A stretch of 61,449 nt of DNA from Aerophototrophica crusticola. GTDB taxonomy: Bacteria; Pseudomonadota; Alphaproteobacteria; Azospirillales; Azospirillaceae. Of this stretch, positions 4,219 through 48,912 are shown piece by piece. Below the pieces are notes generated by a model. It saw only the letters and a list, made by a program, of their open reading frames with translations. It did no database searches and was not told the DNA's origin. The translations under genes were made by a program, and so were the position numbers. Numbering within the stretch: position 1 is the stretch's first letter; each line of letters begins with the position of its first letter. The stretch covers positions 1 to 61,449 of the forward strand of contig MOEB01000019.1 in the NCBI GenBank assembly GCA_001939945.1. Direction: 5' to 3'.

Positions 4219-4260
4219 CAGTCGCCGCCGGGGCGTGTCTACGGTCAGCGTAAACACGCC
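4219..4260. repeat. Composite hairpin repeat, truncated copy E
   Basis: The segment CAGTCGCCGCCGG followed by a hairpin (GGCGTGT ... ACACGCC) matches the 3' part of the copy at 30283-30430 (CAGTCGCCGCCGG then GAGCGTGTTCAC/GTGAACACGCTC). The preceding bases GCGCGGCC also match the family. It lies in the 121-bp gap before the ABC1 kinase gene. The stem differs from the other copies while staying self-complementary. Confidence 0.5.
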
Positions 4261-4303
4261 TTAAGCCCTCGCCGAACGCACTCCGGAGCACCATCTTCCT
4301 GCC

Positions 4304-5647
4304 ATGACGGACGAACAGAGCACCTTGCAAGGTCGGCTTGCCCGCTACGCGCGGGTCGGCACGGCCATGGGCGGCATCGCGGCGCGGGTGGCGGGTGAGC
4401 GCTTCCTGGGCATGAGGCTGGAACGGGACGCCCACGCGGCCGAGCTGCGCCAAGCCTTGGGTGGGCTGAAGGGCCCCCTGATGAAGGTGGCGCAGATTCT
4501 GTCCACCATCCCCGATGCCCTGCCGCAGGAATATGTGCAGGAGCTGGCCCAGCTCCAGGCGGACGCGCCACCCATGGGCTGGCCCTTTGTCAAGCGCCGC
4601 ATGGCGGCGGAGCTGGGGCCGGACTGGCAGTCCAAGTTCCAGAGCTTCGAGAAGGAGGCCGCCTCGGCCGCCTCACTGGGCCAGGTGCACCGGGCCGTGG
4701 CGCCGGACGGCACCGCGCTGGCCTGCAAGCTGCAGTACCCGGACATGCAGTCGGCGGTGGAGGCGGACCTGAAGCAGCTCAAGCTGCTGTTCGGCGTCTA
4801 TGCCCGCTACGACAAGGCCATCCGCACCGACCAGATCCATGCGGAGATCGGCGACCGCCTGCGGGAGGAGCTGGACTATGCCCAAGAGGCCAAGCACATG
4901 GACCTCTACGCCCGCATGCTGGACGGGGTGGAGGGGGTGCATATCCCCCAGGTGGTGCCGGGGCTGTCGACCAAGCGCCTGTTGAGCATGAGCTGGGTGG
5001 AGGGGCGCAAGATCATCGCCTTCAAGGAGGCGGAGCTGGAGGTGCGCAACCGCATCGCCATGAACATGTTCCGCGCCTGGTACGTGCCCTTCTACTGCTA
5101 CGGCGTCATCCACGGCGACCCGCATCTGGGAAACTACACGGTCCGGCCGGACCACGACATCAACCTGCTGGATTTCGGCTGCATCCGGGTCTTCCCGCCG
5201 CGCTTCGTCCATGGGGTGATCGAGCTGTACGAGGCCATCCGCACCGATGACGAGGCCCGCGCCGTCCACGCCTATGAGGCCTGGGGCTTCAAGAACATCA
5301 GCAAGCAGATGGTGGAGGTGCTGAACATCTGGGCCAAGTTCGTCTACGCCCCCATCCTGGAGGACCGCACCCGCACCATCGAGGAGACGAACAACGGCCG
5401 CTACGGCCAAGCCACCGCCGCCAAGGTGCACATGGCCCTGCGGGAGGTGGGCGGGGTGGAGATCCCCCGTGAGTTCGTCTTCATGGACCGCGCCGCCATC
5501 GGCCTGGGCAGCGTCTTCCTGCACCTGAAGGCGGAGATCAACTGGTATCGCCAGTTCCACGAGCTGATCGCCGGCTTCGACGTGGACGCCTTGTCCCGCC
5601 GGCAGGCGGAGGCCCTGGCAGTGGTGGGGCTGGCGGCGCGGCACTGA
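4304..5647 (+). CDS. ABC1/UbiB-family atypical protein kinase
   Basis: A 447-residue member of the AarF/ABC1/UbiB (ADCK) family, ATPase-like kinases that support ubiquinone biosynthesis or lipid handling. Visible motifs: an N-terminal extension with KVAQ (61-64) where the family has KxGQ, an alanine-rich loop ASAASLGQVH (about 119-128) in place of the usual glycine loop, the VAIK-type lysine in ACKLQYP (K142), catalytic loop HGDPHLGNY (270-278) and metal-binding LLDFG (288-292). It lacks the C-terminal transmembrane helices of classical UbiB. A coq7 gene lies 26 kb away, so ubiquinone biosynthesis is possible, but this branch could have another substrate. No strong ribosome-binding site precedes the ATG. 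Confidence 0.87.
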   Translation: MTDEQSTLQGRLARYARVGTAMGGIAARVAGERFLGMRLERDAHAAELRQALGGLKGPLMKVAQILSTIPDALPQEYVQELAQLQADAPPMGWPFVKRRMAAELGPDWQSKFQSFEKEAASAASLGQVHRAVAPDGTALACKLQYPDMQSAVEADLKQLKLLFGVYARYDKAIRTDQIHAEIGDRLREELDYAQEAKHMDLYARMLDGVEGVHIPQVVPGLSTKRLLSMSWVEGRKIIAFKEAELEVRNRIAMNMFRAWYVPFYCYGVIHGDPHLGNYTVRPDHDINLLDFGCIRVFPPRFVHGVIELYEAIRTDDEARAVHAYEAWGFKNISKQMVEVLNIWAKFVYAPILEDRTRTIEETNNGRYGQATAAKVHMALREVGGVEIPREFVFMDRAAIGLGSVFLHLKAEINWYRQFHELIAGFDVDALSRRQAEALAVVGLAARH

Positions 5648-5669
5648 AGGCGCCGCCGCCAGCCCCACC
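5623..5669. terminator. Bidirectional hairpin between convergent genes
   Basis: A perfect 15-bp stem, GGTGGGGCTGGCGGC (5623-5637) with its complement at 5655-5669 and a 17-nt loop, straddles the stop codon of the ABC1 kinase gene and the convergent end of the next gene (stop at 5677). There is no U-tract on either side, so it may act by RNA folding or 3'-end protection rather than as a classical intrinsic terminator. Confidence 0.5.
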
Positions 5670-5676
5670 GACATGC

Positions 5677-6054
5677 TTACTCGTACGTCGCCCAGGTCTC
5701 ACCGCTCTTGCGGTTGTAGCTGATGGCGATCTTGGAGACGGTGCAGAGGTCGAAGTTGTCCCACTCCGCCTCTTCGCCATCATCATAGATGACCTTCAGG
5801 TCCCACTTGCAGGACTTTTCCTTGCGGCTGAAGACGATGTCCACGGCGGTGCCGTCGGGCAGCACGTCACGACCCAGGATGTCCTCTTCCCAGGAGGAAG
5901 ACTTGCTGGGGGCGACATAGACCTCGCTAATGGTGTAGCCGGTCTTGTTCAGCAGGGAGAAATTCTGCTTGCCGTCGGCCAGGGCCGTGCCCGGCAGCAT
6001 GGCCATCGCCCCAAGCACCAGGCCCGTGGCCGCCCAAGTCCCCATTCCCCGCAT
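5677..6054 (-). CDS. Small exported protein of unknown function
   Basis: A 125-residue protein with a signal peptide (MRGMGTWAATGLVLGAMAM followed by LPGTALADG, cleavage likely after ALA, residues 24-26). The mature part, about 100 residues, is rich in short beta-strand patterns (NFSLLNKTGYTISEVYVAPS, then WEEDILGRDVLPDGTAVDIVF) and contains two cysteines (KSCKWDLK, FDLCTV) that could pair in the periplasm. This resembles a widespread alphaproteobacterial family of small periplasmic beta-sandwich proteins without known function. ATG at 6054 is supported by AGGGGG 5 nt upstream. A longer open frame reaching 6612 is a shadow of the neighbouring gene. Confidence 0.8.
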   Translation of the reverse strand: MRGMGTWAATGLVLGAMAMLPGTALADGKQNFSLLNKTGYTISEVYVAPSKSSSWEEDILGRDVLPDGTAVDIVFSRKEKSCKWDLKVIYDDGEEAEWDNFDLCTVSKIAISYNRKSGETWATYE

Positions 6055-6145
6055 GATACCCCCTATGAAGATGACTCGGGCTTGTTGCCCGCGCCTGGGA
6101 GGGTAGGGGATTAAGCCTTTTGGCGGAAGTCCATACTTTCGGATG

Positions 6146-7393
6146 TCAAGCGACCAATTTGCGCTCGGCAGTGACGGCCGCTGCGGCATCCAGGACCGCC
6201 ACCTGGCGGCTGCCCGCGGCGTCTGTGTCCAGCGCGAGGAACCGGCCCGTTGGGTCCCAGCGGGGGATGGGGGCCATGGCCGCGTCGGCTCCCGCATGCA
6301 GGCGGGCCACGGCCAGCACCCTGTCCCCGTCCAGGTCGGCCAGCCGGATGGTCCGCAGGGCCCGGGCGTCGGCAGCGGCGCCGAGGGCCAACCAGCCCCC
6401 CTGGGGGCGGACCGCCCCGCTGCCGATCCCCTCTCCCGGCAGCAGCAGCGAGGGCGGCGTGCCGCCGGATGCGTCCACTTGCCACAGCCCCGCCTGGATT
6501 GCCTGCCGCCGCCGTACAGGCCGCCACCCGGCGGCCGCCAGCACCAAACGCCGCCGCAGCCGCGCGGGCCTCGGCACCACGGCCCTGCCCCGGGCGATGC
6601 AGAGCCGGTCATCGTCCATCCAGACCGGCGCGCCCCTCACCTCGGCCGCCAGCACCCTCAGGTCACCGCCGTCGGGATCGCAGGACAGCAGCCGTGCCCG
6701 TTCCCCGCCAGACCGGTCCAGGCAACGGTGCAGGAAAGCCAGCCGGGTGCCCGACGGATTCCAGGTCGGGTCGGCCAGCAGGTGGGCAGACAGGGGAAGG
6801 CAAAGCCGTTCCTCCTCGCTGCCGCCCAGGCCCGCCGCCTCCGCGACGCTCACCAGCAACCGGCAGGCGCCGTCCGCCAGATCCATGCGCCACAAGCCGT
6901 CTTCCCGCGGGCAGGGAGCCAGCAGGCCCGGGGCCACCAGCCCGTCCGAAGGCCAGCCGGCAGGTCGTCCCGACAGGTAGTGCCACAGCCGCGCCGGGCT
7001 GGCGCCGACCGAGACCGCCCCGTCGGGGTGCAGGGCCTGTACAGGGAAGGGAAGTTCACGCCGTTCCTCCCGCTCCAGGTCGAACAGCAGGCCGCCGCAC
7101 CGGTCCCCCCGGGGTACCGCCCAGGACAGGGTATTGCCGGGCAGCCAGCGCAGCCAGGCCCCGTCGGCCGGGGTCCAGGCCCGGGTCTGGCCGATGGGTC
7201 GCAGGGTCCCGGCCGCCGGGTCCCACAGGCAGATCCGCGCCGCCCCCGCCAAGCCGGGGGACGGGACCGGCGGCAACTCCAACAATGCCAGCAGCTTGCC
7301 GTCCGCGGACCAGGGCGTTCCGAGCCCGAGCATGTGCGCGTGACCGGCGGGTGTCTCCGCCGTCACGGGGCAGGGCTGGTCCAACGTCTGCAT
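6146..7393 (-). CDS. TolB/WD40-like beta-propeller protein
   Basis: A 415-residue protein without signal peptide or membrane helix. Repeated blade signatures can be read: TPWSADGKLLALLEL, ICLWDPAAGTLRPIG, LWRMDLADGACRLL, PTWNPSGTRLAFLHR, LLSCDPDGGDLRVLA, LWQVDASGGTPPSLL, PRWDPTGRFLALDTD. These match the TolB/PD40 beta-propeller pattern, about six or seven blades. Family members include scaffolds and some carbohydrate-active enzymes; no catalytic residue can be singled out, so a binding role is as likely. The start at 7393 is the first ATG that keeps the first blade intact; the ribosome-binding site is weak. It is followed by a repeat element rather than an operon partner. Confidence 0.72.
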   Translation of the reverse strand: MQTLDQPCPVTAETPAGHAHMLGLGTPWSADGKLLALLELPPVPSPGLAGAARICLWDPAAGTLRPIGQTRAWTPADGAWLRWLPGNTLSWAVPRGDRCGGLLFDLEREERRELPFPVQALHPDGAVSVGASPARLWHYLSGRPAGWPSDGLVAPGLLAPCPREDGLWRMDLADGACRLLVSVAEAAGLGGSEEERLCLPLSAHLLADPTWNPSGTRLAFLHRCLDRSGGERARLLSCDPDGGDLRVLAAEVRGAPVWMDDDRLCIARGRAVVPRPARLRRRLVLAAAGWRPVRRRQAIQAGLWQVDASGGTPPSLLLPGEGIGSGAVRPQGGWLALGAAADARALRTIRLADLDGDRVLAVARLHAGADAAMAPIPRWDPTGRFLALDTDAAGSRQVAVLDAAAAVTAERKLVA

Positions 7394-7528
7394 GGGTCGA
7401 TATCCGGTGGCGGCGTCCCCGGATAGAGGACACCCGACTACCAGGGATAACGCCTCCCGCGCGCCGCGGACCCCTGGCCGGGCGGGTAGGGGTCCGGCTT
7501 CTTTCGGGGTAAATCGGTCGGGCCGGGC

Positions 7529-7632
7529 CCGTTTCCAGCTGACTGGAGACGGGCCTGGGTGCTCGTGTCCCTTGATCGCCAGCGCCGCATCCGCGGGCTT
7601 GGCTTGCGCGTACATGGGTGCGCGCGGCCGCC
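7529..7632. repeat. Composite hairpin repeat, copy A
   Basis: Between the glutathione transferase and beta-propeller genes. It contains a first hairpin (GCCCGTTTCCAG/CTGGAGACGGGC, 7529-7556), the conserved linker CGTGTCCCTTGATCGCC, a stem with loop ATCC (GCCGC/GCGG), the GCTTGGCTT linker, and a second hairpin GCGCGTAC-ATGG-GTGCGCGC. The same order recurs at about 23.2, 30.4 and 48.9 kb with different stem sequences. Confidence 0.7.
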
Positions 7633-7644
7633 AAGGGCGTCCGG

Positions 7645-8298
7645 TCAGCCCTCGGCCGGCTTGGGCGGGAAATTCCGGGCCCAAAGTTCGGCGATGCGCG
7701 GGTCCTGCTCCGCCCGCTCGGCCGCCGCGACCACGTTGGGCGCCACCTGCCGGATGCGGTCGCGCCGGGGGCGCCAGCGGGTGACCATGGCCACGTACAG
7801 GTCCAGGATGGTCATGGTCTCCCCCAGCAGGAACTGTCCCGGCTTGGGCTTCAGCCCCTGTTCCATCAGCTCCCAGCAGCGCAGGGTGCGGTTAACCGTG
7901 GCCTCCTTCAGCAGGCGCTGCGCGTCCTCCCCGTTGACCCAGCGTTCCGGCACGTCACCCACCGTGTACATGGGATAGATGGCGGCCGGCAGGTACACCA
8001 GCCAGCGCAGGAAGGTGGGCCGCAGCGGGTCGCCCGGCTCGGGTGCCAGCCCACTGCCCGGGTGCCTCTCCAGCAGCCACAGGATGATGGCCACGCTCTC
8101 CGTCAGCACCGTGCCGTCGGGCAGCAGGACCGTGGGCACCTGCATCAGGGGATTGGCCTGTTGCAGCCGTTCCAGGTTGGGGTCGTCCTCGCTGGAGAAG
8201 GGGTCTGCCTCCACCCGCTCATACGGTTCCCCCAGCAGCACGCAGGCCGCTTCCACGATGGTCGAGCCGAAGCCGTCCTTGCCGAACAGGGTCAGCAT
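7645..8298 (-). CDS. Glutathione S-transferase family protein
   Basis: A 217-residue cytosolic GST-like protein. The N-terminal thioredoxin-like half reads MLTLFGKDGFGSTIVEAACVL and contains NPLMQVPTVLLPDGTVLTESVAI, the glutathione-binding cis-Pro (VPT) and ES motif of the fold. The C-terminal helical half follows from about residue 85. Catalytic Ser/Cys/Tyr assignment is uncertain because the usual N-terminal position reads GFGS. ATG at 8298 is fixed by GGGAGG 5 nt upstream. It lies 46 bp downstream of nrdJ on the same strand and may be co-transcribed. The substrate is unknown. Confidence 0.85.
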   Translation of the reverse strand: MLTLFGKDGFGSTIVEAACVLLGEPYERVEADPFSSEDDPNLERLQQANPLMQVPTVLLPDGTVLTESVAIILWLLERHPGSGLAPEPGDPLRPTFLRWLVYLPAAIYPMYTVGDVPERWVNGEDAQRLLKEATVNRTLRCWELMEQGLKPKPGQFLLGETMTILDLYVAMVTRWRPRRDRIRQVAPNVVAAAERAEQDPRIAELWARNFPPKPAEG

Positions 8299-8344
8299 GG
8301 TTCCTCCCGTTTCTGGTTGTCGCGGCGTGAACAGGCCGGGGGGC

Positions 8345-10648: not shown

Positions 10649-10730
10649 GCGCGGGCCTCCGGTGGGCGGGTCGCATGCCTCAACAGTAGGGCGGGCCAAT
10701 CAGCCGATCAAGCGGATGTTCGCGGGATGT

Positions 10731-11495: not shown

Positions 11496-11631
11496 TGGCG
11501 CGGGGCTCGGCTGGGAAGGTCTGCCCGGTTCAATAGCCCCGGCCCGCCCCCCTGTCCAGGCAGGCCGGGAACCGCCGGGGCCCCTGGGCGGTTGCTGCTG
11601 CGATGGCGCCACAGCCGACAGGAGAGAGCGG

Positions 11632-11880
11632 ATGACCAACCAGGCCCCCCAGAAGCCCGGCCCCGGCGGGATGGTGAACGACGACAAGGACCCCACCCAG
11701 CGCATGCCCTCGGGCTCCTCGGACGGGGACCCGGAGGCGCGGGCCATCCTGGACCAGCAGCACACCGGCAACCACCAGAAGCCCAATGACGAGAGCGCCG
11801 ACAAGCGCGGCGGCACCCGCGCGGGGGCGGAGAACGTGGAACCGAAGGACGCGCCGCAGAAGGACCGTGAGACGGGCTGA
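11632..11880 (+). CDS. Small hydrophilic, probably disordered protein
   Basis: An 82-residue protein, MTNQAPQKPGPGGMVNDDKD onward, made almost entirely of polar, charged, Gly and Pro residues, with no hydrophobic core, signal peptide or membrane segment. I do not recognise a family. The composition is that of small intrinsically disordered stress-type proteins and is similar to the genes at 59.1 and 59.5 kb. ATG at 11632 has GGAGAG about 5 nt upstream, which supports translation. It is divergent from plsC and convergent with ydcF. Confidence 0.6.
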   Translation: MTNQAPQKPGPGGMVNDDKDPTQRMPSGSSDGDPEARAILDQQHTGNHQKPNDESADKRGGTRAGAENVEPKDAPQKDRETG

Positions 11881-11952
11881 CAGGGCCTTCCACGCGCCCC
11901 CAGGCGCCTCTACCCGGGGGCCGGGGCCGTTTCCGGCTGCCCGGGAACTGCC

Positions 11953-14727: not shown

Positions 14728-17439
14728 TTACCGGCTGAACCGGTCCAGCAGGCGCTGGATGTAGTCGCGCTCGATCTTGGGGCGGCTGGGGTCGCCGGCG
14801 CGGCGGCGCAGCTCGTCCAGGATTTCGCGGGTGCGCTGGATGTCGGCCTGTTCCGGGATCTTCACGTCGTCGGTGTTGAAGCTGCCGCTGCCGGGCAGGG
14901 GACGGCCCAATGGGTCGCGGCCGGGCTGCTGGCCCGCCTGCCGGCGCTGGCCGCCACCGCCCTGGCCCTGCTGGGCCTGCATCTGCTGCTGCATGGACTG
15001 CATGCCCTGCTGCAACTGGTCCAGGGCCTGGGCCTGGGGCTGCACCGCCTGGCCGGGGGCGCCCTGTTGCAGGGCCTGCTCCGCATCCCGCATGGACCGT
15101 TCCGCCCGGCCCAAGGGGCGGGGGATTTCCCCGCCCATCTCCCCGAACTGGCGCATCAACTCACCCAACTGGCGGCGCAGGTCCTCCTGCCGCTGGGCCA
15201 TGCCGCCCTGGCCGTTCTGGCCCGGCATCTGTCCCTGCTGCTGCCCTTGCTGTCCCTGCTGCTGGCCGCGCTGGCCCTGCTGCTGCTGGCGTTGGCCCTG
15301 GGTGCCCTGGGTGGGGTCCTGTGGGCCGGTCACCTGGGGCTGACGCCCCTGGCGGTTGGGGGACTGGCCCTGCTGGCCCTGGGGGGGCTGCATGAACTCC
15401 TGGCCCTGGGGCATGCCCTCCCCGTCCTGGGACTCGCGGAAGGTCTCGTCCATCAGTTGCTGCTGCTGCTGGGCCAGGCCCTGCAGGTTCTCCATCATTT
15501 CCTGCATCTGCTGGCCCTGCTGGGCCTGCTCCGCCGTCTGCGGCTGGCCGTTGCGCAGGTTCTCCATCATCTGCTGGAGTTGGGACAGCATCTGGCGGGC
15601 GGCGTCGCGGCTGCCGTTCTGGGCCATCTGCCGCATCTGCTCCATCATCCGCTGCAAGTCCTGGCGGTCCAGGGTCTGGGCGTTGGGGTCGGCCTGGGGC
15701 GGCTGCTGGCCATCCTGCATGGCCTGCCGCATCTGCTCCTCCATGGCGTCGAGGAACTGCTGCATGGCCTGCTCCAGCTCCTGCATCAGCTGGTTCAGCT
15801 CCTCCTCGCTGGCGTTGCGGTCCAGGGCTTCCATCAGCTTCTGCTGGGCGTCACGCATGGCCCGCTCGGCCAGGGACAGGTTGCCGTCCTCGATGCGCAG
15901 GGCCGTGTCCCAGAGCTGCTTCTGCATGTCCGGCAGGTCCAGGGGCACCGCCACGTCCGCCAGACGGCGGGCGGCGCTGCGCAGGGACAGGAACACGGCC
16001 GTGTCGCCGCCGAAACGGTCGGGGCGCAGGGACAGCTCGTCCAGGATGTTGCCCACCGCCGGCCGCGCCGCCTCCCCCTCCAGGGTCAGGCGCTTGCGCT
16101 CGTTGATCACGGCGCGGGCGACGGGATGGCGGAATGCCCGCTCCGGCAGGACCATGCGCTGGTCCGCGCTCTTGCCCACCTGCCCGGCCCCGTCCAGCGC
16201 CTCCAGCCGCACCACCACGGGCAGGCCGGCCCAGGGGTGGGGGGTCAGGTCGTGGAAGCCGGTGGCGTTGGCCTCCTTCGGGTTGCGGCCCGGCAGGGGC
16301 AGCGGCAGGACGACGGGGTCCTTGCCCAGGGACGGGGGCAGGGCCTCCCCATGGACCGGGTCCAGGCCGATGACGGCGTTCACCTTCGTCAGGCCATAGT
16401 CGTCCGCGGCAGAATAGTTGAACTGCACCGCCTGCCGCTCCGTCGGGGCGGGCGGGTTGCGGAAGGTGATGCCGGGGGCAAGGTCGGGCACCACCTGGAT
16501 GGGCCAGGCGCCAACCTCCCGCCCGTTCTGGGTGATGGCGACCCGGTCGCCCGAGGTGATGGGGTGGCTGACCTGCCAGCCGCCGCCGGACACGGGCTCG
16601 AACGGCACCTCCGCCCCGTTGGCGGCCAGCACCGGCACCTTGGTCCCGCCGCTGACCCGGGCCAGCAGCACGCTGTTCACGGGCACGGGCACTGCCTTGG
16701 GTTCCGCGGGCTCCGCCGAGTTGGCCGCGGCGGCCTGCTGCGGCTGCGCCCCGGGGCCGGCACCCTGGACACGGGTCAGGAAGATGGGGGGCTGGCCGGT
16801 ATAGTCCGGCGGGGTCAGCCAGGCATCCGCCTGCACCGCCACCCCCACCCCGCCGAAGCCGATGCCCGGCACCAGGGCCGCACCCAGGCGGCCCGACAGG
16901 TCACCCCAGGACAGGCTGGCGCCCACCACCAGCAACAGGCCCACCGCGGCGCGCAGGGCCCAGGGGTCCCGGGCCGCCAGGTTGGGATGGGGGCTGTTGA
17001 CGCGCAGGGCCTTGGCCTGCTGCCGCGCCCGCTCCTGCGCCGCCCGCCACAGGGCGTGGGACAGGGGGTCGCCGGCGCCGCCGGCCAGACCGTCCTTCAA
17101 CTGCACCAGGGGCCGGTGCTTCAGGGCACTGTCCCGCTCCACCCGTCGGCGCGCTTCCTCCACCGTCGGCCAGCGGTAAGGGCGCAGGTTCTTCCAACCC
17201 AGGTACCCGATGGCCCCAATGAACCCCAGCAGCAGGACCAGGTGCAGCCAGGGCGGCAGGGCGGTGAAGAAGCCCATCCAGGCCAGCGCCAGGAACAGCC
17301 CCGCCACCCCCGCCGGGGGCCAGAGGGCCGGCCACAGCCGTTCCCAACCCAACGCGACCCGGGCGAGGGACAGGGGCCCCGACGGCTCAGGTCCAGCGGG
17401 GGCCTTGCGGCGGCGGGGCAGTCCCAGTCGGCTCAGCAT
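14728..17439 (-). CDS. DUF4175 / TIGR02302 family large membrane protein
   Basis: A 903-residue protein. N-terminal TM helices: about 40-60 (LWPPAGVAGLFLALAWMGFF), 63-82 (PPWLHLVLLLGFIGAIGYLG) and 160-180 (LRAAVGLLLVVGASLSWG). A periplasmic-type region follows with AWLTPPDYTGQPPIFLTRVQG and a C-terminal third extremely rich in Gln and Met (about 540-830), then a conserved end EQADIQRTREILDELRRRAGD. This matches the alphaproteobacterial DUF4175 family found next to lysA and argH. The Q-rich segment is low complexity but in frame and coding. Function unknown; an envelope role is inference. Confidence 0.9.
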   Translation of the reverse strand: MLSRLGLPRRRKAPAGPEPSGPLSLARVALGWERLWPALWPPAGVAGLFLALAWMGFFTALPPWLHLVLLLGFIGAIGYLGWKNLRPYRWPTVEEARRRVERDSALKHRPLVQLKDGLAGGAGDPLSHALWRAAQERARQQAKALRVNSPHPNLAARDPWALRAAVGLLLVVGASLSWGDLSGRLGAALVPGIGFGGVGVAVQADAWLTPPDYTGQPPIFLTRVQGAGPGAQPQQAAAANSAEPAEPKAVPVPVNSVLLARVSGGTKVPVLAANGAEVPFEPVSGGGWQVSHPITSGDRVAITQNGREVGAWPIQVVPDLAPGITFRNPPAPTERQAVQFNYSAADDYGLTKVNAVIGLDPVHGEALPPSLGKDPVVLPLPLPGRNPKEANATGFHDLTPHPWAGLPVVVRLEALDGAGQVGKSADQRMVLPERAFRHPVARAVINERKRLTLEGEAARPAVGNILDELSLRPDRFGGDTAVFLSLRSAARRLADVAVPLDLPDMQKQLWDTALRIEDGNLSLAERAMRDAQQKLMEALDRNASEEELNQLMQELEQAMQQFLDAMEEQMRQAMQDGQQPPQADPNAQTLDRQDLQRMMEQMRQMAQNGSRDAARQMLSQLQQMMENLRNGQPQTAEQAQQGQQMQEMMENLQGLAQQQQQLMDETFRESQDGEGMPQGQEFMQPPQGQQGQSPNRQGRQPQVTGPQDPTQGTQGQRQQQQGQRGQQQGQQGQQQGQMPGQNGQGGMAQRQEDLRRQLGELMRQFGEMGGEIPRPLGRAERSMRDAEQALQQGAPGQAVQPQAQALDQLQQGMQSMQQQMQAQQGQGGGGQRRQAGQQPGRDPLGRPLPGSGSFNTDDVKIPEQADIQRTREILDELRRRAGDPSRPKIERDYIQRLLDRFSR

Positions 17440-17505
17440 GTCCTTGTCGCCTTCAAAGCATCGCCTTGGCTTCAGCGGGCGTCGGGTTGCCTGAGCCTAA
17501 CGCGC

Positions 17506-18813
17506 TCAGGCGGGGGTTGGCGAGAGCCAGTCCGGCATCTTTTCCAGGGCCAGGCTCTCCTCAAAACTAGGGCGGCGGCGCACGACGGCAAAGCTGTCGC
17601 CCGTCACCAGCACCTCCGGCACCAGCGGGCGGCTGTTGTAGGTGCCCGACATGGCCGCGCCATAGGCCCCCGCCGTCAGGAACGCCACCAGGGCGCCGGG
17701 CGCCACCGGCGGCATCTCCCGCTGTTTCGCGAAGGTGTCACCGCTTTCGCAGACGGGCCCCACCACGTCCACCGGGGAAAGGGGGGAGGCGGGGGAAGGT
17801 TCCTCCACCGGCAGCAGCGTGTGCCAGGCGTCGTACAGGGCCGGGCGCATCAGGTCGTTCATGGCCGCGTCCAGCACCAGGAAGCGGCGGTGCAGCCCCT
17901 CCTTGACGAAGTTCACCCGGGCCAGCAGCAGCCCGGCGCTGGCCACCAAGGACCGGCCCGGCTCCAGCGTCACCTGGCAGCCCAGGTGACCCACCGTCTC
18001 GAAGATGGCGGCGACATAGGAATGGTGGTCCGGCTCCGCGTCCGAGGGGCGGTAGGGCACGCCCAGACCGCCGCCAAGGTCGATGCGGCTGATGGGAATG
18101 CCATCCTCCCGCAGCACCTGCACCAGCTCCGCCACTTTGCCGAAGGCCTGGCGGAAGGGCGTGGTCTTCAGGAGCTGGGAGCCGATATGGATGGCGACGG
18201 CGACGGGTTGCAGGCCCGGCAACGCCTTGGCCCTGGCGAAGGCGTCGCGCGCCAGGGACAGGTCGATGCCGAACTTGTCCTCTTTCCGGCCCGTGGCGAT
18301 CTTGCCGTGGGTCCCGGCATCCACGTCGGGGTTGATGCGGATGGCGATGGGGGCGGGCTTGCCCAGCCGGGTGGCGACGGCGCTGACCATCTCCAGCTCG
18401 GGGAAGCTCTCAACGTTCAACTGGTGGATGCCGACGGTGAGGGCGGCGGCGACCTCCTCCGGCGTCTTGCCGACACCGGAAAAGACGATGCGGTCCGCCG
18501 GGATGCCGGCGGCCAGGGCGCGGCGCATCTCCCCCTCCGACACCACGTCGGCGCCGGCGCCAAGGTTGGCCAGGGTGCGGATGACGGCCAGGTTGCTGTT
18601 GGCCTTCAGCGCGTAGCAGATGTCGATGCCCAGCCCCTTGGCGCGGTAGGGGGCCAGCACGTCGTCATAGGCGTGCCAGTTGGCCTCCAGCCCGGCCGTG
18701 GAATAGACGTAGGCCGGCGTGCCGACCGCGTCGGCGATGCGGGACAGGGGCACGCCCTCGGCATGCAGGGCGCCGCCGACATAGGCGAAGCCGGGGGTGG
18801 GGAAGCAGCTCAT
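17506..18813 (-). CDS. lysA: Diaminopimelate decarboxylase
   Basis: A 435-residue PLP enzyme of fold type III that converts meso-diaminopimelate to lysine. The PLP lysine is in CYALKANSN (K70). The phosphate-binding glycine loop GGGLGVPY, the EPGRSLVASAG segment and the CESGDTF motif, whose cysteine completes the active site across the dimer, are all visible. It overlaps the upstream lipoprotein gene by ATGA, in the conserved order argH-lipoprotein-lysA. Confidence 0.96.
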   Translation of the reverse strand: MSCFPTPGFAYVGGALHAEGVPLSRIADAVGTPAYVYSTAGLEANWHAYDDVLAPYRAKGLGIDICYALKANSNLAVIRTLANLGAGADVVSEGEMRRALAAGIPADRIVFSGVGKTPEEVAAALTVGIHQLNVESFPELEMVSAVATRLGKPAPIAIRINPDVDAGTHGKIATGRKEDKFGIDLSLARDAFARAKALPGLQPVAVAIHIGSQLLKTTPFRQAFGKVAELVQVLREDGIPISRIDLGGGLGVPYRPSDAEPDHHSYVAAIFETVGHLGCQVTLEPGRSLVASAGLLLARVNFVKEGLHRRFLVLDAAMNDLMRPALYDAWHTLLPVEEPSPASPLSPVDVVGPVCESGDTFAKQREMPPVAPGALVAFLTAGAYGAAMSGTYNSRPLVPEVLVTGDSFAVVRRRPSFEESLALEKMPDWLSPTPA

Positions 18814-23147: not shown

Positions 23148-23265
23148 TCGCCCCCGGCTTGGGGGCCGGGGCAGGCTCCGCCGCATCCGCGGCTTGGCTT
23201 AAGCGGCCACAAGGCCGCACGGCGGCGGTCGCCGCCGGCGTGGGCCCATCGCGCCATGGGCCCAC
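23148..23265. repeat. Composite hairpin repeat, copy B
   Basis: In the 312-bp gap between etfA and the dehydrogenase gene. It shows TTCCTCAATCGCC, an inserted GC-rich hairpin, CGCATCCGCGGCTTGGCTTA, a second hairpin GCGGCC-ACAA-GGCCGC, then GGTCGCCGCCGGCGTG and a third hairpin (GGGCCCAT/ATGGGCCC). The rest of the gap is the terminator. Confidence 0.7.
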
Positions 23266-23279
23266 ACTGGGGCCGATGC

Positions 23280-30268: not shown

Positions 30269-30282
30269 TTTGAAGATCCTGA

Positions 30283-30430
30283 GAGCGTGTTCACAGTTGC
30301 CGTGAACACGCTCCGGCGGCGACTGCCGCCGCGCCCGCCCATGCGGGCGTAAGCCAAGCCGCGGATGCGGCGCCGGCGACTGAGGGACACGAACGGCCAG
30401 ACCTGCTTCCAGGTCACTGGATGCAGGTCT
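30283..30430. repeat. Composite hairpin repeat, copy C (most complete)
   Basis: Read on the minus strand: hairpin 1 (AGACCTGCATCCAG/CTGGAAGCAGGTCT), CGTGTCCCTCAGTCGCC, a GCCGC-ATCC-GCGGC stem, CTTGGCTTA, hairpin 2 GCCCGC-ATGG-GCGGGC, CAGTCGCCGCCGG, and hairpin 3 GAGCGTGTTCAC-7nt-GTGAACACGCTC (12-bp perfect stem). It sits in the 5' leader of gluQ, within the gap before the divergent HNH gene. Confidence 0.75.
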
Positions 30431-30553
30431 AGCAGCCATCCCCCTTCTTTGCCAACAGGCCGGGGTGGGGCGCGACAAGGGTCCAGGGCATGTAGGTTCC
30501 GGCCCCACTTACCCCTACCTGTTGGGTCACCGTTTCATGGCGGAACCGTGACA

Positions 30554-33161: not shown

Positions 33162-33247
33162 GCCCCAGTGGCGAAATGGTAGACGCGGCAGACTCAAAAT
33201 CTGTTGCCCGAAAGGGCGTGCTGGTTCGAGTCCGGCCTGGGGCACCA
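33162..33247 (+). tRNA. tRNA-Leu (anticodon CAA)
   Basis: An 86-nt class II tRNA: acceptor GCCCCAG pairs with CTGGGGC, followed by an encoded A-CCA. The D arm contains AAATGGTAGAC, the anticodon stem is GCAGA/TCTGT around loop CTCAAAA (anticodon CAA, reading UUG), a long variable arm GCCC-GAAA-GGGC is present, and the T arm is GCTGG-TTCGAGT-CCGGC. The long variable arm and anticodon identify leucine. Confidence 0.97.
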
Positions 33248-38273: not shown

Positions 38274-38960
38274 ATGCGCATTCCCGTCTCCCTTGCACTC
38301 CTGCCCCTCCTCGCCCTGCCTGCCTGCGCCAACCGGCACGATCCGCCGCGGGGGCCCGGCATGATGATGGGCCGCCCGCCCCTGAGCCTTGCGGGGGAGC
38401 CGCTGGGCCGGCCTGCCCGGGACAAGGATGCCTATGTGGAAAGCACGCTGGACTGGTTCGGCCAGGCCGACCGGGACGGGGACGGCAAGCTCTCCCCGGC
38501 GGAGCTGGAGGCCGACGTGGCCCGCTTCTTCGGTTCCCTGGACGCGGACGGCGATGGCGCGGTGAACAGCCGGGAGCTGGCCGACAGCCGCCTGCGCCTC
38601 GCCGCATCCTTCCACGCCCCGCGGGAGGATGCGGCGCCATCGCCCGACGGCCCGCCCCGCGGCGGCCCGATGGGCCGGGGTGGGATGGCCGGGGGCATGG
38701 GGGCCGACCCGGTGATGTCCGCCGACCTGGACCTGGATTTCCGCGTCACCCTGGCGGAGTTGCAGGCCCAGGCCGGACGCAAGCTGGCCACCGCCGACCG
38801 GGACAGGGACGGCGCCCTGTCGCGGGCCGAGGCCCAGGCCGCCGCCGAGGCCGCCTTCGACCGCCCGCCCGAGGGGCTGCGGCGCATGGGCGGGCCGGGT
38901 GGCGGTCCCCCCGGCGGCGGGCGCCGGGGTGGGGGTGGCGGGCCGCCGGGCGCGATGTGA
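38274..38960 (+). CDS. EF-hand lipoprotein (first of two)
   Basis: A 228-residue exported lipoprotein: signal MRIPVSLALLPLLALPAC with lipobox LPAC (Cys18). Four EF-hand-like loops are visible: DRDGDGKLSPAE, DADGDGAVNSRE, DLDLDFRVTLAE and DRDRDGALSRAE. The first two and last are canonical calcium-binding loops; the third has Leu/Phe at positions usually taken by Gly. The C-terminus is a Gly/Pro/Arg-rich tail. An ATG at 38073 with a strong ribosome-binding site is also in frame, but would bury the signal peptide. It lies 63 bp upstream of a paralogue. Confidence 0.82.
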   Translation: MRIPVSLALLPLLALPACANRHDPPRGPGMMMGRPPLSLAGEPLGRPARDKDAYVESTLDWFGQADRDGDGKLSPAELEADVARFFGSLDADGDGAVNSRELADSRLRLAASFHAPREDAAPSPDGPPRGGPMGRGGMAGGMGADPVMSADLDLDFRVTLAELQAQAGRKLATADRDRDGALSRAEAQAAAEAAFDRPPEGLRRMGGPGGGPPGGGRRGGGGGPPGAM

Positions 38961-39023
38961 TGCCCTTGACTTGCGCCCGGCCGCAGGGCATCGCCTGGGG
39001 CAAGACCCCAGACGGAGCCGCCC

Positions 39024-39650
39024 GTGACCGCAAAGCCCCTGACCGCCCTGGCCGTTGCCCTTGTCCTGGCCGGGTGCGGCGGTGGCGGGCCTGAGGACCG
39101 GGTGCCCATCCGGGTCATGCCCGTCAGCCCCTCGGGCGAGCTGCTGGGCCCCCCGGCCAGCAACGAGGCCGCGCTGCTGCCGGCGCTGGAAGCCTGGTTC
39201 GGCCGGGCCGACGCCAACGGCGACGGCGCCCTGGACCGGGCCGAGTTCGTGGCCGACGCCGACCGCGCCTTCGCCGCCTTCGACACCAACAAGGATGGCA
39301 GCGTCACGGCGGCGGAGCTGACCCTGTTGCGGGCCACCTCCCCCTTCCGCCCGCCGCCGGAGAAGCCCAGCGCCCGACTGCGCCCCCGCAGCCTGACCCT
39401 GACCACGGCGGAGCTGGAGGACCGCGGCCCCGATGCCCAGGGCAGCGGCAACCGGCCCTTCTACCGTTCCGGCGCCGACCCTGTGATGGCGGCCGACGCC
39501 AATGCCGACTTCCGCGTGACGGCGGAGGAGCTGCGCGCCCAGGCCGGGCGCCTGTTCGACAAGCTCGATTCCAACCGCGACGGCCGGGTGTCGCGGGCCG
39601 AATACCTGGACTCCGAACGCCGGCGCCTCGCCCTCCTGCCGGGGTGGTGA
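39024..39650 (+). CDS. EF-hand lipoprotein (second of two)
   Basis: A 208-residue lipoprotein: signal MTAKPLTALAVALVLAGC with lipobox LAGC (Cys18). EF-hand loops: DANGDGALDRAE, DTNKDGSVTAAE, DANADFRVTAEE and DSNRDGRVSRAE. The same pattern of a degenerate third loop (F in place of G) as in the preceding gene shows the two arose by tandem duplication. A GTG start at 39024 has GGAG 6 nt upstream. Likely periplasmic calcium-binding protein; partner unknown. Confidence 0.85.
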   Translation: MTAKPLTALAVALVLAGCGGGGPEDRVPIRVMPVSPSGELLGPPASNEAALLPALEAWFGRADANGDGALDRAEFVADADRAFAAFDTNKDGSVTAAELTLLRATSPFRPPPEKPSARLRPRSLTLTTAELEDRGPDAQGSGNRPFYRSGADPVMAADANADFRVTAEELRAQAGRLFDKLDSNRDGRVSRAEYLDSERRRLALLPGW

Positions 39651-40764: not shown

Positions 40765-40958
40765 GGCGCCTGTCCCGCCTCTTGCCCGTCAAATCGGGGC
40801 CGGCCGCCGCGTGGTGGCTGGCCCTTTCCGTTTGCGGCTCGGGTTTCTGGGGGCGTCCTGCCAAGCGCCGAAGTCATTCCGGCCTTGAGCCGGAACCCTT
40901 GGGAAAGCCGTCGTGCCACTGGCGCGGCAGCGGGCCTGCGGGTGGGGATGCCCCGTTT

Positions 40959-41274
40959 TGGAACGCAGAGGACGCAGATGGCCGCAGAGGACACAGAGGA
41001 ACTTACAAGAGCAGTGATGACAGTGATGGCCAGGGGTGACAGTGATGTGTCCTGCCTTGGATTGATGTTGGTGCCAACCTCGGGCAGCAGTTTGACTGCG
41101 CCTTCGGCGCAAGATTGACCCGACGTCGGGCGGTGGTCCCGACGCCTTCGCCGCACCGACCCCTCCCTGTCCTCTGCGGCCCTCTGCGTTCAAAAAAACC
41201 CTTGTCCGTCGGGCAGCGGCATCAGGACAAGATCACCCCATCACTGTCATCCCTGGCCATCACCGTCATCACTG
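40959..41274. repeat. Interleaved word-repeat palindromes
   Basis: Two different inverted repeats are interlocked: word GCAGAGGAC at 40959-41001 pairs with 41163-41190 (GAACGCAGAGG...), and CAGTGATGACAGTGATGGCC at 41011 onward (to 41046) pairs with 41239-41274. The order is 1-2-1'-2', so the pairs cross. Shorter stems (CTGCGCC-TTC-GGCGCA) lie between. The 737-bp gap between nrdB and the prolyl oligopeptidase gene contains no convincing ORF. Confidence 0.75.
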
Positions 41275-41501
41275 TTCCTGTAGGTTTCCCCCAGACAGCC
41301 AAGGGCTTCCGGTGCCCTGCATGCACCGATCCCGAGGACCCCGGCTCGGGGGCCGGGGTGACCTCCGGTGCCTTGCACGGATGGATGCTCGCCCCCTTTG
41401 TAACCGCCCTGTTACACGCCCTTCCGCCCTCCCCGAGGGGGTGCTAGACCCTTCCTTAATGGCGGGGCCTGCCCGCGCGGGAGGGGAAGAGGGACGTGGC
41501 G

Positions 41502-43655: not shown

Positions 43656-43681
43656 CGGCCTACCCCATCCCGGATGCAAAA

Positions 43682-43714
43682 GGGGCGGCCCCGCGGGGCC
43701 GCCCCTTCTTGTTT
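43682..43714. terminator. Bidirectional terminator between peptidase and histidine kinase genes
   Basis: GGGGCGGCCCC (43682-43692) pairs with GGGGCCGCCCC (43695-43705), followed on the plus strand by TTCTTGTTT and on the minus strand by TTTTGC. It serves the convergent prolyl oligopeptidase and histidine kinase genes. Confidence 0.85.
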
Positions 43715-43734
43715 GCCCGCACAAGGACCCCGAC

Positions 43735-45780: not shown

Positions 45781-45887
45781 GTGCAAGCCCGTGCCAGGAC
45801 GCCGGCAGGGCTGCCAGCAGCCTACAGCCTAGGGACGGTTGCTTAAGCGATCCTGAATCGGCCGCGCTTTCCCGGGCGCCACGGGGC

Positions 45888-47300
45888 TCACTCCCCCGCG
45901 GGCCGCAGGTTGCCCTCCATCTCCGCCGCCAGGTAAGCCGCGACGGCATAGGCGGCGGTCACCTGGGCCAGGGCGGCGGGGTCGATCTTGTCCAGCGTGT
46001 CGTCAGCGGTGTGGTGCAGGTCGAAATAATCGGTGCCGTCCTGGGTCAGGGTGATGACCGGCACCCCCGCCGCCCGCAGTGGCCCGATGTCCGGCCCGCC
46101 ATGGGCCTCGTTGCCGCCCTTGGCGATGCCCAAGGGCATCAGCGCGCTCATGAACCGGTCGGCCAGGGGCAGGGACTCCGGCCCAAACCGGGTTTCCAGC
46201 CGCCAGACCCGGCCCGCGCCGAAATCCGCCTCCGTCGCCAGCATGTGCCGGGGCAGCTCGTCCGCATGGGCGGCGGCATAGGCCTTGGCCCCCAGCAGGC
46301 CGATCTCCTCCGCCGCGAACAGCACCACCCGGATGGTCCGCCGCGGCCGCTGCGGCAGGTCGCGGATCAGCCGGGCCGCGGCGGTGACCACGCCCACCCC
46401 GGCGCCGTCATCCACGGCGCCGGTGCCCAGGTCCCAACTGTCCAGGTGCGCGCCGATCAGGATGATCTCCTCCGGCTTCTCCCGGCCGCGGATCTCCGCG
46501 ATCACGTTGCGGGTCTGGGTGGCGGGGCCGGTGCGCGGCGTCAGGTCCAGATGCACCTTGACCGGCTTGCCATAGCGGGCCAGCCGCTCCAACTGGTCCG
46601 CGTCGGGGTTGGACAGGGCGGCCACGGGGATGCGCGGCACCCCCTCGGCATAGCTCATCACGCCCGTGTGCGGGAACCGCCGGCTGTCCGTGCCGACGGA
46701 GCGGATCAGCACCGCCACTGCGCCGCGCTTTGCCGCCTCTGCCGCCCCCTTGCTGCGCATGGGCACCACGGCGCCATAGGAGGACCCGTCCTGGGTCTTC
46801 CACATGCGCTGGCCCACATAGGCGACCTTGCCGGCAAGGCTGTCCGGCGGGGCGGCCTGCAAGGCCTCCAGGCTGGGGAAGAAGGCCACCTCCGCCTGTA
46901 ACCCGCCATCGGGCGTGGGCACGCTGTTGCCCAGGGCCGTCACGTGCAGGGGCTGGGGGAAGGGGCTGGTGGTATGGGCGTGGGCCTGGCCCCGCTCCCA
47001 GGCGGGGATGGTCACCGGTTCGGTCCAGACCCGGTCGAAGCCCAGGGCCGCCAGCTTGGCCTCCGCCCAGGCCACCGCCGCCGCGTCACCGGGGCTACCC
47101 GGCAGGCGGGGGCCCACCTCCGTGGTCAGGGACTCCACGATTTCATAGGACAGGCGGCTGTCCAGGGCCCGCTTCCGCAGCTCCGCCGCCAGGGCCATGG
47201 CGGTGTCGGGGATGCGGGCGGGCTCGGCAAGGGCCGGGGAAAGGGGCAGGACGAGGCAGGCAAGCAACAGACCCTTGGAAACCAGACCCTTGACCCCCAT
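45888..47300 (-). CDS. M28-family zinc aminopeptidase, exported
   Basis: A 470-residue peptidase with signal peptide (MGVKGLVSKGLLLACLVLPL, cleavage after SPALA). A PA domain insertion spans about 130-230 (LAGKVAYVGQRMWKTQDG, AVLIRSVGTDSRRFPHTG). The M28 co-catalytic zinc ligands appear in IGAHLDSWDLGTGAVDDGAG (His, Asp), FAAEEIGLLGAKAY (Glu), EADFG (Asp) and FDLHHTADDTLD (His). It removes N-terminal residues from peptides in the periplasm. ATG at 47300 has AGGAGAG 6 nt upstream. Confidence 0.93.
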   Translation of the reverse strand: MGVKGLVSKGLLLACLVLPLSPALAEPARIPDTAMALAAELRKRALDSRLSYEIVESLTTEVGPRLPGSPGDAAAVAWAEAKLAALGFDRVWTEPVTIPAWERGQAHAHTTSPFPQPLHVTALGNSVPTPDGGLQAEVAFFPSLEALQAAPPDSLAGKVAYVGQRMWKTQDGSSYGAVVPMRSKGAAEAAKRGAVAVLIRSVGTDSRRFPHTGVMSYAEGVPRIPVAALSNPDADQLERLARYGKPVKVHLDLTPRTGPATQTRNVIAEIRGREKPEEIILIGAHLDSWDLGTGAVDDGAGVGVVTAAARLIRDLPQRPRRTIRVVLFAAEEIGLLGAKAYAAAHADELPRHMLATEADFGAGRVWRLETRFGPESLPLADRFMSALMPLGIAKGGNEAHGGPDIGPLRAAGVPVITLTQDGTDYFDLHHTADDTLDKIDPAALAQVTAAYAVAAYLAAEMEGNLRPAGE

Positions 47301-47488
47301 TCCCCGCTCTCCTGACCGTTCCGTCCCCGGGGCGGCATTGCCGCCGCCAAACACCAGCATGGCCGCTGAATCAGGCGGGCGCAAGCCCATGCCCCTGCGC
47401 CACCCCAAGCCTTTGGTGTCAACCAATCGCCCTGTCATCTCCCCCGCGATGACAGGCTTCCGCCGCATTCCCCCGCCATCTCTACAGC

Positions 47489-47872
47489 ATGTCGAACCGC
47501 ACCGCCGACGAGCCCGCCATGCTGCCGACCCTGTCCCGCTCCCTCTTCCTTGCCGCCACCGCCCTGCTGGCCGGGGCCGTCGCCGGACTGTGGGACCTGT
47601 CGGCGGCGGAGCTGGAGGGCACGCTGCTGATCCTGGGGCTGTCGGGCTTCGGCCTGGGGCTGGTGGCGCCACGCGGGGCGCCGTTGCTGGCCTTGGCCGT
47701 GGCGGCGGGGGTGCTGGGGGCACACCTGGCCTCCCCCGTCCCGCCGGGGGCCCAGCTCTCCCCCCTCGAAAGTGGCCTGATTTCCGCCGCCGTCGCCGCC
47801 CTGCCCGCCGGGATCGGCGCCGGCCTGGGCGCCCTGTTCTCCGGCAGCGCGCGGAGGCTGGTCGTCAGGTAG
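47489..47872 (+). CDS. Small hypothetical membrane protein
   Basis: A 127-residue hydrophobic protein with about four predicted TM segments (LFLAATALLAGAVAGLW, GTLLILGLSGFGLGLVA, LLALAVAAGVLGAHLA, SAAVAALPAGIGAGLGALF). I do not recognise a family. It begins 188 bp from the divergent M28 gene and stops 3 bp from the end of the convergent gcvA-like gene. Expression is likely but function cannot be inferred. Confidence 0.6.
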   Translation: MSNRTADEPAMLPTLSRSLFLAATALLAGAVAGLWDLSAAELEGTLLILGLSGFGLGLVAPRGAPLLALAVAAGVLGAHLASPVPPGAQLSPLESGLISAAVAALPAGIGAGLGALFSGSARRLVVR

Positions 47873-47875
47873 GGC

Positions 47876-48799
47876 TCACGCCACCATCATCCCGCATTGC
47901 CCCGCGCAGGCGTTGACCTCTGACAGGATCCAGTCGCGGAAGGCCTGGATCTTCGGCTCGCCGGCCCGCTTCTCGCTGTAGGCCAGCCAATAGGCGCTGC
48001 CCGTGTGCAGCACCAGCCCGGGGAAGGGCAGGACCAGCCGGCCCGTGGCGATGTCGCCGGCGAAGAACAGGGGGCAGAGCAGGGCCACGCCCTGGCCCAT
48101 GGCGGCGGCTTGGCCGGTCATGCCGTGCATGTCGTACTGGGTGCCGGTGGGAAGGTCGCCCACCTCCACCCCCGCCAGCCGGAACCAGTCCCGCCACCAC
48201 GCCTTGTCATCCGGGTGCTGGGAGTCCAGGAAGGGCAGGGACAGCAGGTCCCGCGGTTCCCGGATGCCGCCCACCCGCTCCGCCAGCCGGGGGCTCAGGG
48301 CGGGGGTCAGGGTGAAGTCCTGCAACCGCTCCGCCACGATGCCGGGCCAGTCGCCCTTGCCGCTGCGCAGGGCCACGTCGAAATCATACTCCAGGTCGCC
48401 CATGCGGGGGTTGGCGTCCAGCCGCACCGCCAGGTCCGGCCGCCGCATCTGGAAATGCCCCAGCCGTGGCACCAGCCATTGCGACGCGAAGGTGGGCAGG
48501 GTGGTGACCGACAGCACCTTGCTCTCCCCCCGGTCGGCCAGCCGATTGACGGTGGCGCGGATGCGGTCGAACGCCTCTGCCACCGCGCCCTGAAGCTCCT
48601 GGCCCGCCGGGGTCAGCTCCAGCTTGCGGGTCAGCCGGCGGAACAGCTCCCGCCCCACATGCTCCTCCAACTGGCGCACCTGGTAGCTGACGGCGGCCTG
48701 GGTGACCGCCAGCTCCTCCGCCGCCTTGGTGAAGGACAGGTGCCGCGCCGCCGCATCGAAGGTGCGCAGCGCGTTCAGGGGCGGCAGGCGGCGGGACAT
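47876..48799 (-). CDS. LysR-family transcriptional regulator, GcvA-like
   Basis: A 307-residue LysR regulator. The winged HTH is RRLPPLNALRTFDAAARHLSF and TKAAEELAVTQAAVSYQVRQLEEHVG; the effector domain follows from about residue 95 (VLSVTTLPTFASQWLVPRLG). The N-terminal wording PPLNALRTFDAAARH is characteristic of the GcvA group. It is divergent from a DUF1127-like gene; a T-N11-A palindrome lies between them. The effector is unknown; it need not be glycine. Confidence 0.9.
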   Translation of the reverse strand: MSRRLPPLNALRTFDAAARHLSFTKAAEELAVTQAAVSYQVRQLEEHVGRELFRRLTRKLELTPAGQELQGAVAEAFDRIRATVNRLADRGESKVLSVTTLPTFASQWLVPRLGHFQMRRPDLAVRLDANPRMGDLEYDFDVALRSGKGDWPGIVAERLQDFTLTPALSPRLAERVGGIREPRDLLSLPFLDSQHPDDKAWWRDWFRLAGVEVGDLPTGTQYDMHGMTGQAAAMGQGVALLCPLFFAGDIATGRLVLPFPGLVLHTGSAYWLAYSEKRAGEPKIQAFRDWILSEVNACAGQCGMMVA

Positions 48800-48823
48800 C
48801 TTTCGTTCTTCCTTCTTTCGCAG

Positions 48824-48912
48824 TTCCCTCAAGCGCCGGGCGCCGCCATCCGGCGGCTTGGCTCATGCGACCATGGGGTCGCGCGGCCGGTTCCCGCCAT
48901 GCGGGAACGGTC
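48824..48912. repeat. Composite hairpin repeat, copy D
   Basis: AGTTCCCTCAAGCGCCGGG, then GCCGCC-ATCC-GGCGGC, CTTGGCTCATGCG, a second hairpin GCGACC-ATGG-GGTCGC, GCGCGGCC and a third hairpin GTTCCCGC-CAT-GCGGGAAC. It begins 24 bp upstream of the gcvA-like start codon, in its leader. The stems differ from copies A-C but keep pairing and the ATCC and ATGG loops. Confidence 0.7.

Follow-up and report, generated by a model that had tools for sequence, protein, structure and literature searches.

A mobile hairpin element with covarying stems and fixed linkers in Aerophototrophica crusticola and other Azospirillaceae

The window analysed here, a stretch of 61,449 nucleotides from the genome of Aerophototrophica crusticola (contig MOEB01000019.1), carries dispersed copies of a composite element made of hairpins and linkers. 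An initial annotation of the sequence read its variable but paired stems as the mark of selection on structure rather than simple copying, and placed several copies in the 5' leaders of genes. The locus raises the question of whether these copies are conserved structures, mobile DNA, or both.

The element is about 150 bp long and, when its copies are compared by sequence, consists of five hairpins (H0 to H4) separated by fixed linkers (Table 1). The four fuller copies that had been noticed at 7529, 23148, 30283 and 48824 were recovered both by sequence and by a covariance model (E 2.8e-28 to 4e-10). A truncated copy proposed at 4219 is complementary to the 30285 copy over 41 nt (80%), but was not reported by the model at E <= 0.001. 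Many copies also contain H0, the hairpin 5' of the TCCCTCA linker, which had been overlooked in the initial annotation together with the mobile ends described below. On either strand, the predicted fold of 30283-30431 is far more stable than folds of shuffled sequence (z -7.7 and -5.9). Across the whole window, the one Rfam match at gathering score is a tRNA at 33162; none lies over the copies.

Table 1. Copies of the element in the window and the parts of the fullest copy
Feature	Position	Strand	Basis
Fullest copy, A type, H0 to H4	30283..30431	-	sequence; fold; model match 30279-30395, 133 bits
H0 hairpin, outer 5' palindrome of the fullest copy	30399..30430	-	fold
Linker TGTCCCTCAGTCGCCGGC of the fullest copy	30372..30389	-	sequence; CCTCA and CGCC conserved at 93-100% (31 copies, eight other genera)
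H1 hairpin GCCGC-ATCC-GCGGC of the fullest copy	30358..30371	-	sequence; pairs counted
H1/H2 linker, CTTGGCTTA type, of the fullest copy	30350..30357	-	sequence; CTTGGCT at 93-100%
H2 hairpin of the fullest copy, variable stem, loop ATGG	30332..30349	-	sequence; pair counts
H3 hairpin CGGCGGC-AGTC-GCCGCCG of the fullest copy	30314..30331	-	sequence; pairs counted
H4 hairpin, outer 3' palindrome of the fullest copy	30283..30313	-	sequence; pair counts
Copy with H0 (about 7520-7559), 3' half degenerate	7520..7684	+	sequence; model match 7560-7684
Copy with longer insert before H1	23148..23268	+	sequence; model match 23175-23268; orthologous places
Copy without recognisable H0, core B-like in sequence	48817..48912	+	sequence; model match 48817-48912; context
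Remnant, H4 and 3' part of H3 only	4219..4262	+	sequence; inverted match, 80%, to 30285-30325

The element is abundant beyond the window. A search with the covariance model, a check that the initial annotation had proposed, gave at least 147 matches in the host genome and matches in 50 of 79 Azospirillaceae genomes; the host-genome loci that were retrieved gave 107 matches. The 17-mer linker CGCATCCGCGGCTTGGC occurs exactly 52 times in the host genome, against 0 for a reversed control, and 80 times against 4 with up to two mismatches, although coding sequence or coincidence accounts for some of the occurrences. Candidate free-standing REP-like end palindromes were also found (17 H0 and 15 H4 core-less matches in 363 kb of host-genome sequence); on reading they proved to be hairpins of the element seen from the other strand, or copies that the filter had passed over, and no free-standing palindrome was recognised.

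The stems change while remaining paired. The seed alignment held 42 host-genome copies, after removal of one coding false match (L044), ten truncated, odd or contig-end copies and seven of a long form. Both partners had changed at 15 of its 34 pairs, including 12 of 13 in H4 and 3 of 7 in H2, and the covariation score was 0.180, compared with 0.067 for shuffled and at most 0.059 for slid alignments. This is the excess of compensatory change whose absence would have told against the initial annotation. Among 63 matches from nine genera, both sides had changed at 28 of 34 pairs, with 97.4% of cells still paired. The motifs CCTCA, CGCC, TCC, CTTGGCT and GTC were kept at 93-100% in a set of 31 copies drawn from eight other genera. 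The pattern of differing but paired hairpins with constant linkers and loops is therefore borne out, and is stronger across genera than in the window. These alignments suggest that the fold may have a role of its own, and a function of the core is what we propose.

Not all of this covariation need reflect compensation. The stem type of H2 shows no linkage to the remainder of the element (mapped on the tree it takes 20 changes, shuffled mean 20.6), so part of the H2 covariation looks like whole-hairpin exchange between copies. Between the copies L043 and L049 there is 1 difference in the 86 columns outside the stem but 4 at stem positions, and near-identical tandem units at L337 differ in H2. 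Resident copies give little sign of compensation, because their changes are one-sided but for one pair: seven orthologous pairs, too few for a firm comparison, had 20 changed pairs with one side altered and 0 with both (element-only fold), and a single pair near H0, at L342, had changed on both sides with pairing kept (fold including flanks). The H2 exchange and the one-sided changes would fit a mobile element free of selection on structure, in which one arm is rewritten from the other by template switching or hairpin repair, or whole hairpins spread by gene conversion. We find this account doubtful, as neutral rewriting of palindromes would not keep the unpaired linkers and loops at 93-100% over eight other genera while the stems change.

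The outer hairpins also carry a strand bias, with 36 A.C to 12 G.T in H0 and 37 to 9 in H4. It was weaker in 118 further copies (H0 18 to 9, p 0.12; H4 14 to 5, p 0.06), in which the inner hairpins had none (H1 0/0, H2 1/1, H3 8/10). In the raw strand count H1 leaned the opposite way (11 G.T, 2 A.C), and terminator-like control hairpins gave 24 G.T to 16 A.C (p 0.27).

The copies are mobile. Their inner core, three hairpins with fixed linkers, is shared by two types of end: type B, TNA-TACC...GGTA-TNA, and type A, YTA-G...C-TAR. Insertion of B-type copies creates a 3-bp duplication of TNA, identical on both sides in 23 of 26 distinct copies (7.9 expected), with copies of identical sequence counted once, and at 58 of 66 sites when sites are counted and the G006 and G010 stretches are added (19.1 expected; 0 of 20,000 permutations). 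Most of 22 A-type copies have TA on both sides, which is not distinguishable from a fixed end. Three of eight fully read sites in a relative are clean empty sites, and insertions are nested at L080 and L065. One subfamily has near-identical copies as well as target duplications, which the initial annotation had named as the sign of simple transposition, and its phrase 'rather than simple copying' does not hold. Since the covariation is real although this sign is present in one subfamily, covariation and mobility are not alternatives; both are real.

The ends point to a possible source of the transposase. In the relative G006, an IS630-family insertion sequence (L260) has ends TCA-TACCAAGTCC...GGTA-TCA, with TCA on both sides, as in B-type copies. 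The element itself has no transposase gene, and its structured core is, by reading, lacking from the IS. B ends share TACC/GGTA and TNA with this IS; a longer pattern fits 10 left and 11 right ends out of 23 each, and many B ends agree with the IS only in TACC. None of the three IS630-family matches in the host genome has such ends. A few bases resembling the A type, TA-GAGC, lie beside an IS630-family ORF at L267. We propose that IS630-family transposases, supplied in trans, would move the element. An IS5-like source (PF13340) was set aside: among 22 matches only L238 had TACCA-like motifs on both strands, and these did not form a flanking pair. The several palindromes, mosaic order and position between genes also recall REP/BIME elements, which are mobilised by a RAYT (Y1) transposase. 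The TNA duplications make such an origin extremely unlikely, as does the host genome itself, which had 0 matches to PF01797 (Y1_Tnp) in a search that was positive in 5 of 14 control genomes.

Genomic context was counted for 103 of the 107 matches in the retrieved loci, leaving out L017 3140, L066 3097, L065 1491 and L065 2632. None of the 103 is centred in a called gene. Among the 100 with called genes on both sides, 91 face the 3' end of one or both neighbours and 43 lie between convergent genes, compared with 6 of 39 gaps in the window (p 0.003). Tandem copies have no preferred orientation (22 sense, 26 antisense). In the window, the copy at 7520 overlaps with its 3' end the end of a called minus-strand gene, the copy at 23148 is flanked on one side by the stop codon of etfA (minus strand) and on the other by a T-tailed hairpin, and 17 nt separate the copy at 48817 from the 5' end of a called gene on the minus strand. 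The fullest copy is 5' of gluQ (start 30268, minus strand), with 10 nt between the gene and the model match, and is absent upstream of all 9 readable gluQ orthologues. The 5'-leader copies are thus unrepresentative. The initial suggestion of a regulatory leader or discrete RNA gene draws on the covariation, the stable fold and the copies that precede genes; the balanced tandem orientation, the gluQ orthologues and the lack of an Rfam match over the copies make it very unlikely.

The bias towards gene 3' ends suggests instead a host structure that ends or protects transcripts, often convergent ones, in the manner of a terminator or mRNA stabiliser. A T-rich stretch follows H0 in several A-type copies read by eye, and Br-REP1 of Bradyrhizobium is described as sitting in overlapping 3'-UTRs (PMC5082802). 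Copies read by eye have no T-run after H4, however, and at etfA the T-tailed hairpin is beyond the element. Stop codons as safe targets also account for the position, and a host role of this kind seems unlikely.

The element is short and non-coding, and its B-type copies have target-site duplications, as MITEs do. We conclude that it is probably a family of short, non-autonomous MITEs of the Azospirillaceae, with two end types on one structured core and the fold maintained. Stop codons would be safe places to insert, since a stop is left either by the duplication or by the first base of the element. The core is probably required in folded form, as RNA or as single-stranded DNA. It would be retained by a need to fold while single-stranded, either in read-through RNA from a neighbouring gene or as ssDNA during replication or transposition, and its stems would change in two ways, through paired substitutions and through swapping of entire hairpins among copies. 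More tentatively, the real unit may be the core, a structured nucleic acid whose three hairpins keep their loops and linkers fixed, family-wide and carried by two transposable end systems. It would act single-stranded, perhaps on the opposite strand given the A.C excess in the outer hairpins, and its stems would be renewed by whole-hairpin swaps.

Similar elements are known elsewhere. RIME of rhizobia is an intergenic mosaic element with large palindromes, also in Alphaproteobacteria, and resembles the present one by description alone, being intergenic, mosaic and palindromic. Br-REP1, another alphaproteobacterial repeat, has three palindromes and lies between convergent genes and in 3'-UTRs; its consensus, CCGGAATCTCGAGATTCCGG, is unlike the linkers here, and the accessible sections of its description mention no target duplication or constant core (PMC5082802). 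BOX and RUP of Streptococcus pneumoniae are likewise small and interspersed with predicted secondary structure, BOX is modular, and the ends of RUP are similar to IS630-Spn1 (PMC3049150). By that description they are set apart by phylum and sequence, whereas here a core is common to two end types across a family; the accessible text describes modules and predicted folds, and the word 'compensatory' does not occur in it. No title or abstract opening in our literature search, which covered few subscription journals, names this element, and the RepRanger paper has no word starting with Azospirill or Rhodospirill (PMC12306157).

An interior whose linkers and pairing are kept over nine genera, with most stem letters changed and two kinds of end, asks for a role of the fold. 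The established view is that DDE transposases require nothing of a miniature element beyond its ends. Because the genus has many copies, empty sites in close relatives and hosts that are harmless, the old question of selfish DNA versus a useful RNA or DNA structure is directly testable here.

The element is a short repeat of five hairpins, H0 to H4, joined by fixed linkers, with the inner hairpins H1 to H3 and their linkers as its core; the table gives its anatomy as read along the strand that carries the TTCCTCA linker. The GGCG before H1 is replaced by a longer hairpin in some copies. Two subfamilies have the plan and core in common and differ in their ends. At the left of the A type, T and A precede the element's G in 21 of the 22 copies read, and TA follows the element in 19 of the 22, the flanks usually being YTA and TAR. 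The B type begins with TACC after TNA and ends with GGTA before TNA. The same core, with other stems, occurs in other genera. Tandem arrays of the core (period 108 bp) lie at 17284-17843 and 7156-7603 of L337, a stretch of the relative G010; in the one array read, the units are near-identical, some differing in H1 or H2.

Parts of the element and the eight empty/occupied pairs examined in full (L-numbers, individual sequence stretches)
Feature	Location	Description
H0	5' outermost	palindrome, found in many copies
Linker	between H0 and H1	TTCCTCAnnCGCCGGCG
H1		hairpin, loop mostly ATCC
Linker	between H1 and H2	CTTGGCT
H2		hairpin, loops of AYGN kind
H3		hairpin, loop (A/G/C)GTC
H4	3' outermost	palindrome
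Clean empty site	L312:472	target TTA
Clean empty site	L328:9225	target TTA
Clean empty site	L312:18009	target TAA, within loop of a palindrome
Empty/occupied pair	L351:12279	one-base difference
Empty/occupied pairs	L364:11686, L328:7374	start at TGA stop codon, downstream flanks diverged
Empty/occupied pairs	L344, L366:14133	ambiguous

The window is one contig of a genome of 6.06 Mb in 328 contigs, in which the 17-base linker occurs exactly 52 times. Sequence reading and covariance model matches bear out the copy positions of the initial annotation. The model, built from 42 copies, has at least 147 matches in the own genome at E up to 0.01 and 13 to 150 in each of the 11 genomes at genus level, all of which have matches (150 best candidates per genome scored). 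Under stricter filters, 50 of 79 genomes and 9 of 13 genera of the family have matches. Among named records, a set that may lack close records of the own genome, the core is present in Niveispirillum, Azospirillum-named strains and strain AAP38. The window also holds three copies of another, GTAGGTCGGATTAGCG-like repeat (14582, 21180, 37019); in L040 and L097, copies of the element have similar palindromes next to them. A 48-nt inverted repeat (41000-41047 and 41239-41286, 90% complementary, 191 nt apart) has its motif near an element copy in L049. Three direct repeats at 38466-39273 resemble DxDxDG calcium-binding loops.

When 42 own-genome copies are aligned with MAFFT, double changes are found in 15 of 34 pairs; covariation is 0.180, vs. 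0.067 after shuffling and no more than 0.059 when partners are slid. For 63 matches from nine genera, in a model-fitted alignment that leans towards structure, 28 of 34 pairs are doubly changed, 97.4% of cells are paired, and covariation is 0.604 (0.115 shuffled, at most 0.089 slid). In eight other genera (31 rows), conservation is 93-100% for CCTCA, CGCC, TCC, CTTGGCT and GTC and 32-61% in the stem columns of H4; the H2 loop varies, as do the first loop bases of H1 and H3. With covariation and constant linkers, the initial observation is right and its reading as selection on structure largely so, the H2 part being open to hairpin exchange. H2 has six paired stem types among 35 own copies, which need 20 changes on the tree of the other columns (shuffled mean 20.6); between L043 and L049 there are four differences in the H2 stem and a single one in the 86 columns outside it. 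Together with the L337 units that differ in H2, these data suggest whole-hairpin exchange between copies as the simplest reading of H2 stem variation.

The initial annotation had opposed structural selection to simple copying, an opposition that fails, since target duplications and empty sites show mobile copies. The two TNAs are identical in 23 of 26 B-type copies flanked by TNA on either side (7.9 expected; identical copies counted once), and in 58 of 66 (19.1 expected; 0 of 20,000 permutations) when every site is counted and stretches of two relatives are added. For relatives G006 and G010, the comparison took in 40 stretches from each, none longer than 20 kb, and most matching pairs are 90-97% identical. 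The core was missing at the other place in 16 of 32 element-to-place comparisons, by a simple test in which not all are clean; of eight pairs examined in full, three are clean, with the target once in the empty site and twice in the occupied one. Younger copies are nested within older ones in L080 and L065.

A search for the IS630-type DDE_3 domain found matches in 8 of the 11 genomes of the genus. The match in L260 (G006) lies inside an element some 1.17 kb long that shows TCA and TACCAAGTCCTGGTGA on one side and inverted TACCAAGTCCCGGTGA with TCA on the other; this end and duplication are those of the B type. An Azospirillum-genus (g12) copy, L186, has the 5' end TACCAAATCCCGGTGATC, close to that of L260; many element copies have only TACC in common with it. 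In L267, an A-like end (TA, then GAGC) flanks another DDE_3 ORF. IS630 prefers CTAG targets and duplicates TA. Three DDE_3 hits lie in the own genome, of which one scores below the family cut-off; neither B- nor A-like ends were found around them. The one in the window is an ORF at 60053-60724 (match 60176-60631, E 7.7e-23), around which no element-like ends were found.

With genes called by a simple codon-based caller, none of 103 copies has its midpoint inside a gene, and a few overlap a gene end. Of the 100 copies flanked by called genes on either side, 43 lie between convergent genes, 22 and 26 between tandem genes in the two orientations, and 9 between divergent ones; among window gaps of at least 50 bases, 6 of 39 are convergent (p 0.003 vs. 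element copies, which lengthen their own gaps). Element-to-gene distances peak where the element end provides the stop codon. The own etfA copy has the stop codon on one side and a T-tailed hairpin on the other; no element was found there in the stretch read of seven relatives keeping the next gene (G001, G002 C1, G003, G006, G008, G009, G010 C48) or in the incomplete G004 contig. At the second etfA of G010, a B-type element begins at the stop codon. The gluQ copy is absent from 9 of 9 readable relatives (G007 incomplete). This absence and the near-equal tandem counts speak against the proposed role in 5' leaders. By eye, L114 (G008) and L116 (G004) form an orthologous resident pair: in both, an A-type copy directly follows the end of the same upstream gene.

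If the fold of one strand is what counts, G.T mispairs should be tolerated on it better than A.C. With repeats removed, A.C exceed G.T in H0 (36 vs. 12) and H4 (37 vs. 9) in the TTCCTCA-linker orientation, a hint that the fold of the opposite strand may be the one that counts. A further 118 copies give the same sign more weakly (H0 18 vs. 9, H4 14 vs. 5), with no such bias in the inner hairpins; terminator-like control hairpins have no significant strand bias. Resident copies show little compensation so far: in seven orthologous G006/G010 pairs, all 20 changed pairs are one-sided when the element alone is folded, and folding with flanks gives a single compensated pair, close to H0. This pattern is explained no less well by selection during mobility, or by hairpin exchange, than by a host function at each site.

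The element is of a known kind, that of structured interspersed repeats and MITEs, with BOX and RUP (PMC3049150) and Br-REP1 (PMC5082802) as examples. What is unusual here is that one structured core, its linkers constant and its stems free throughout a bacterial family, stands behind two kinds of transposable ends.
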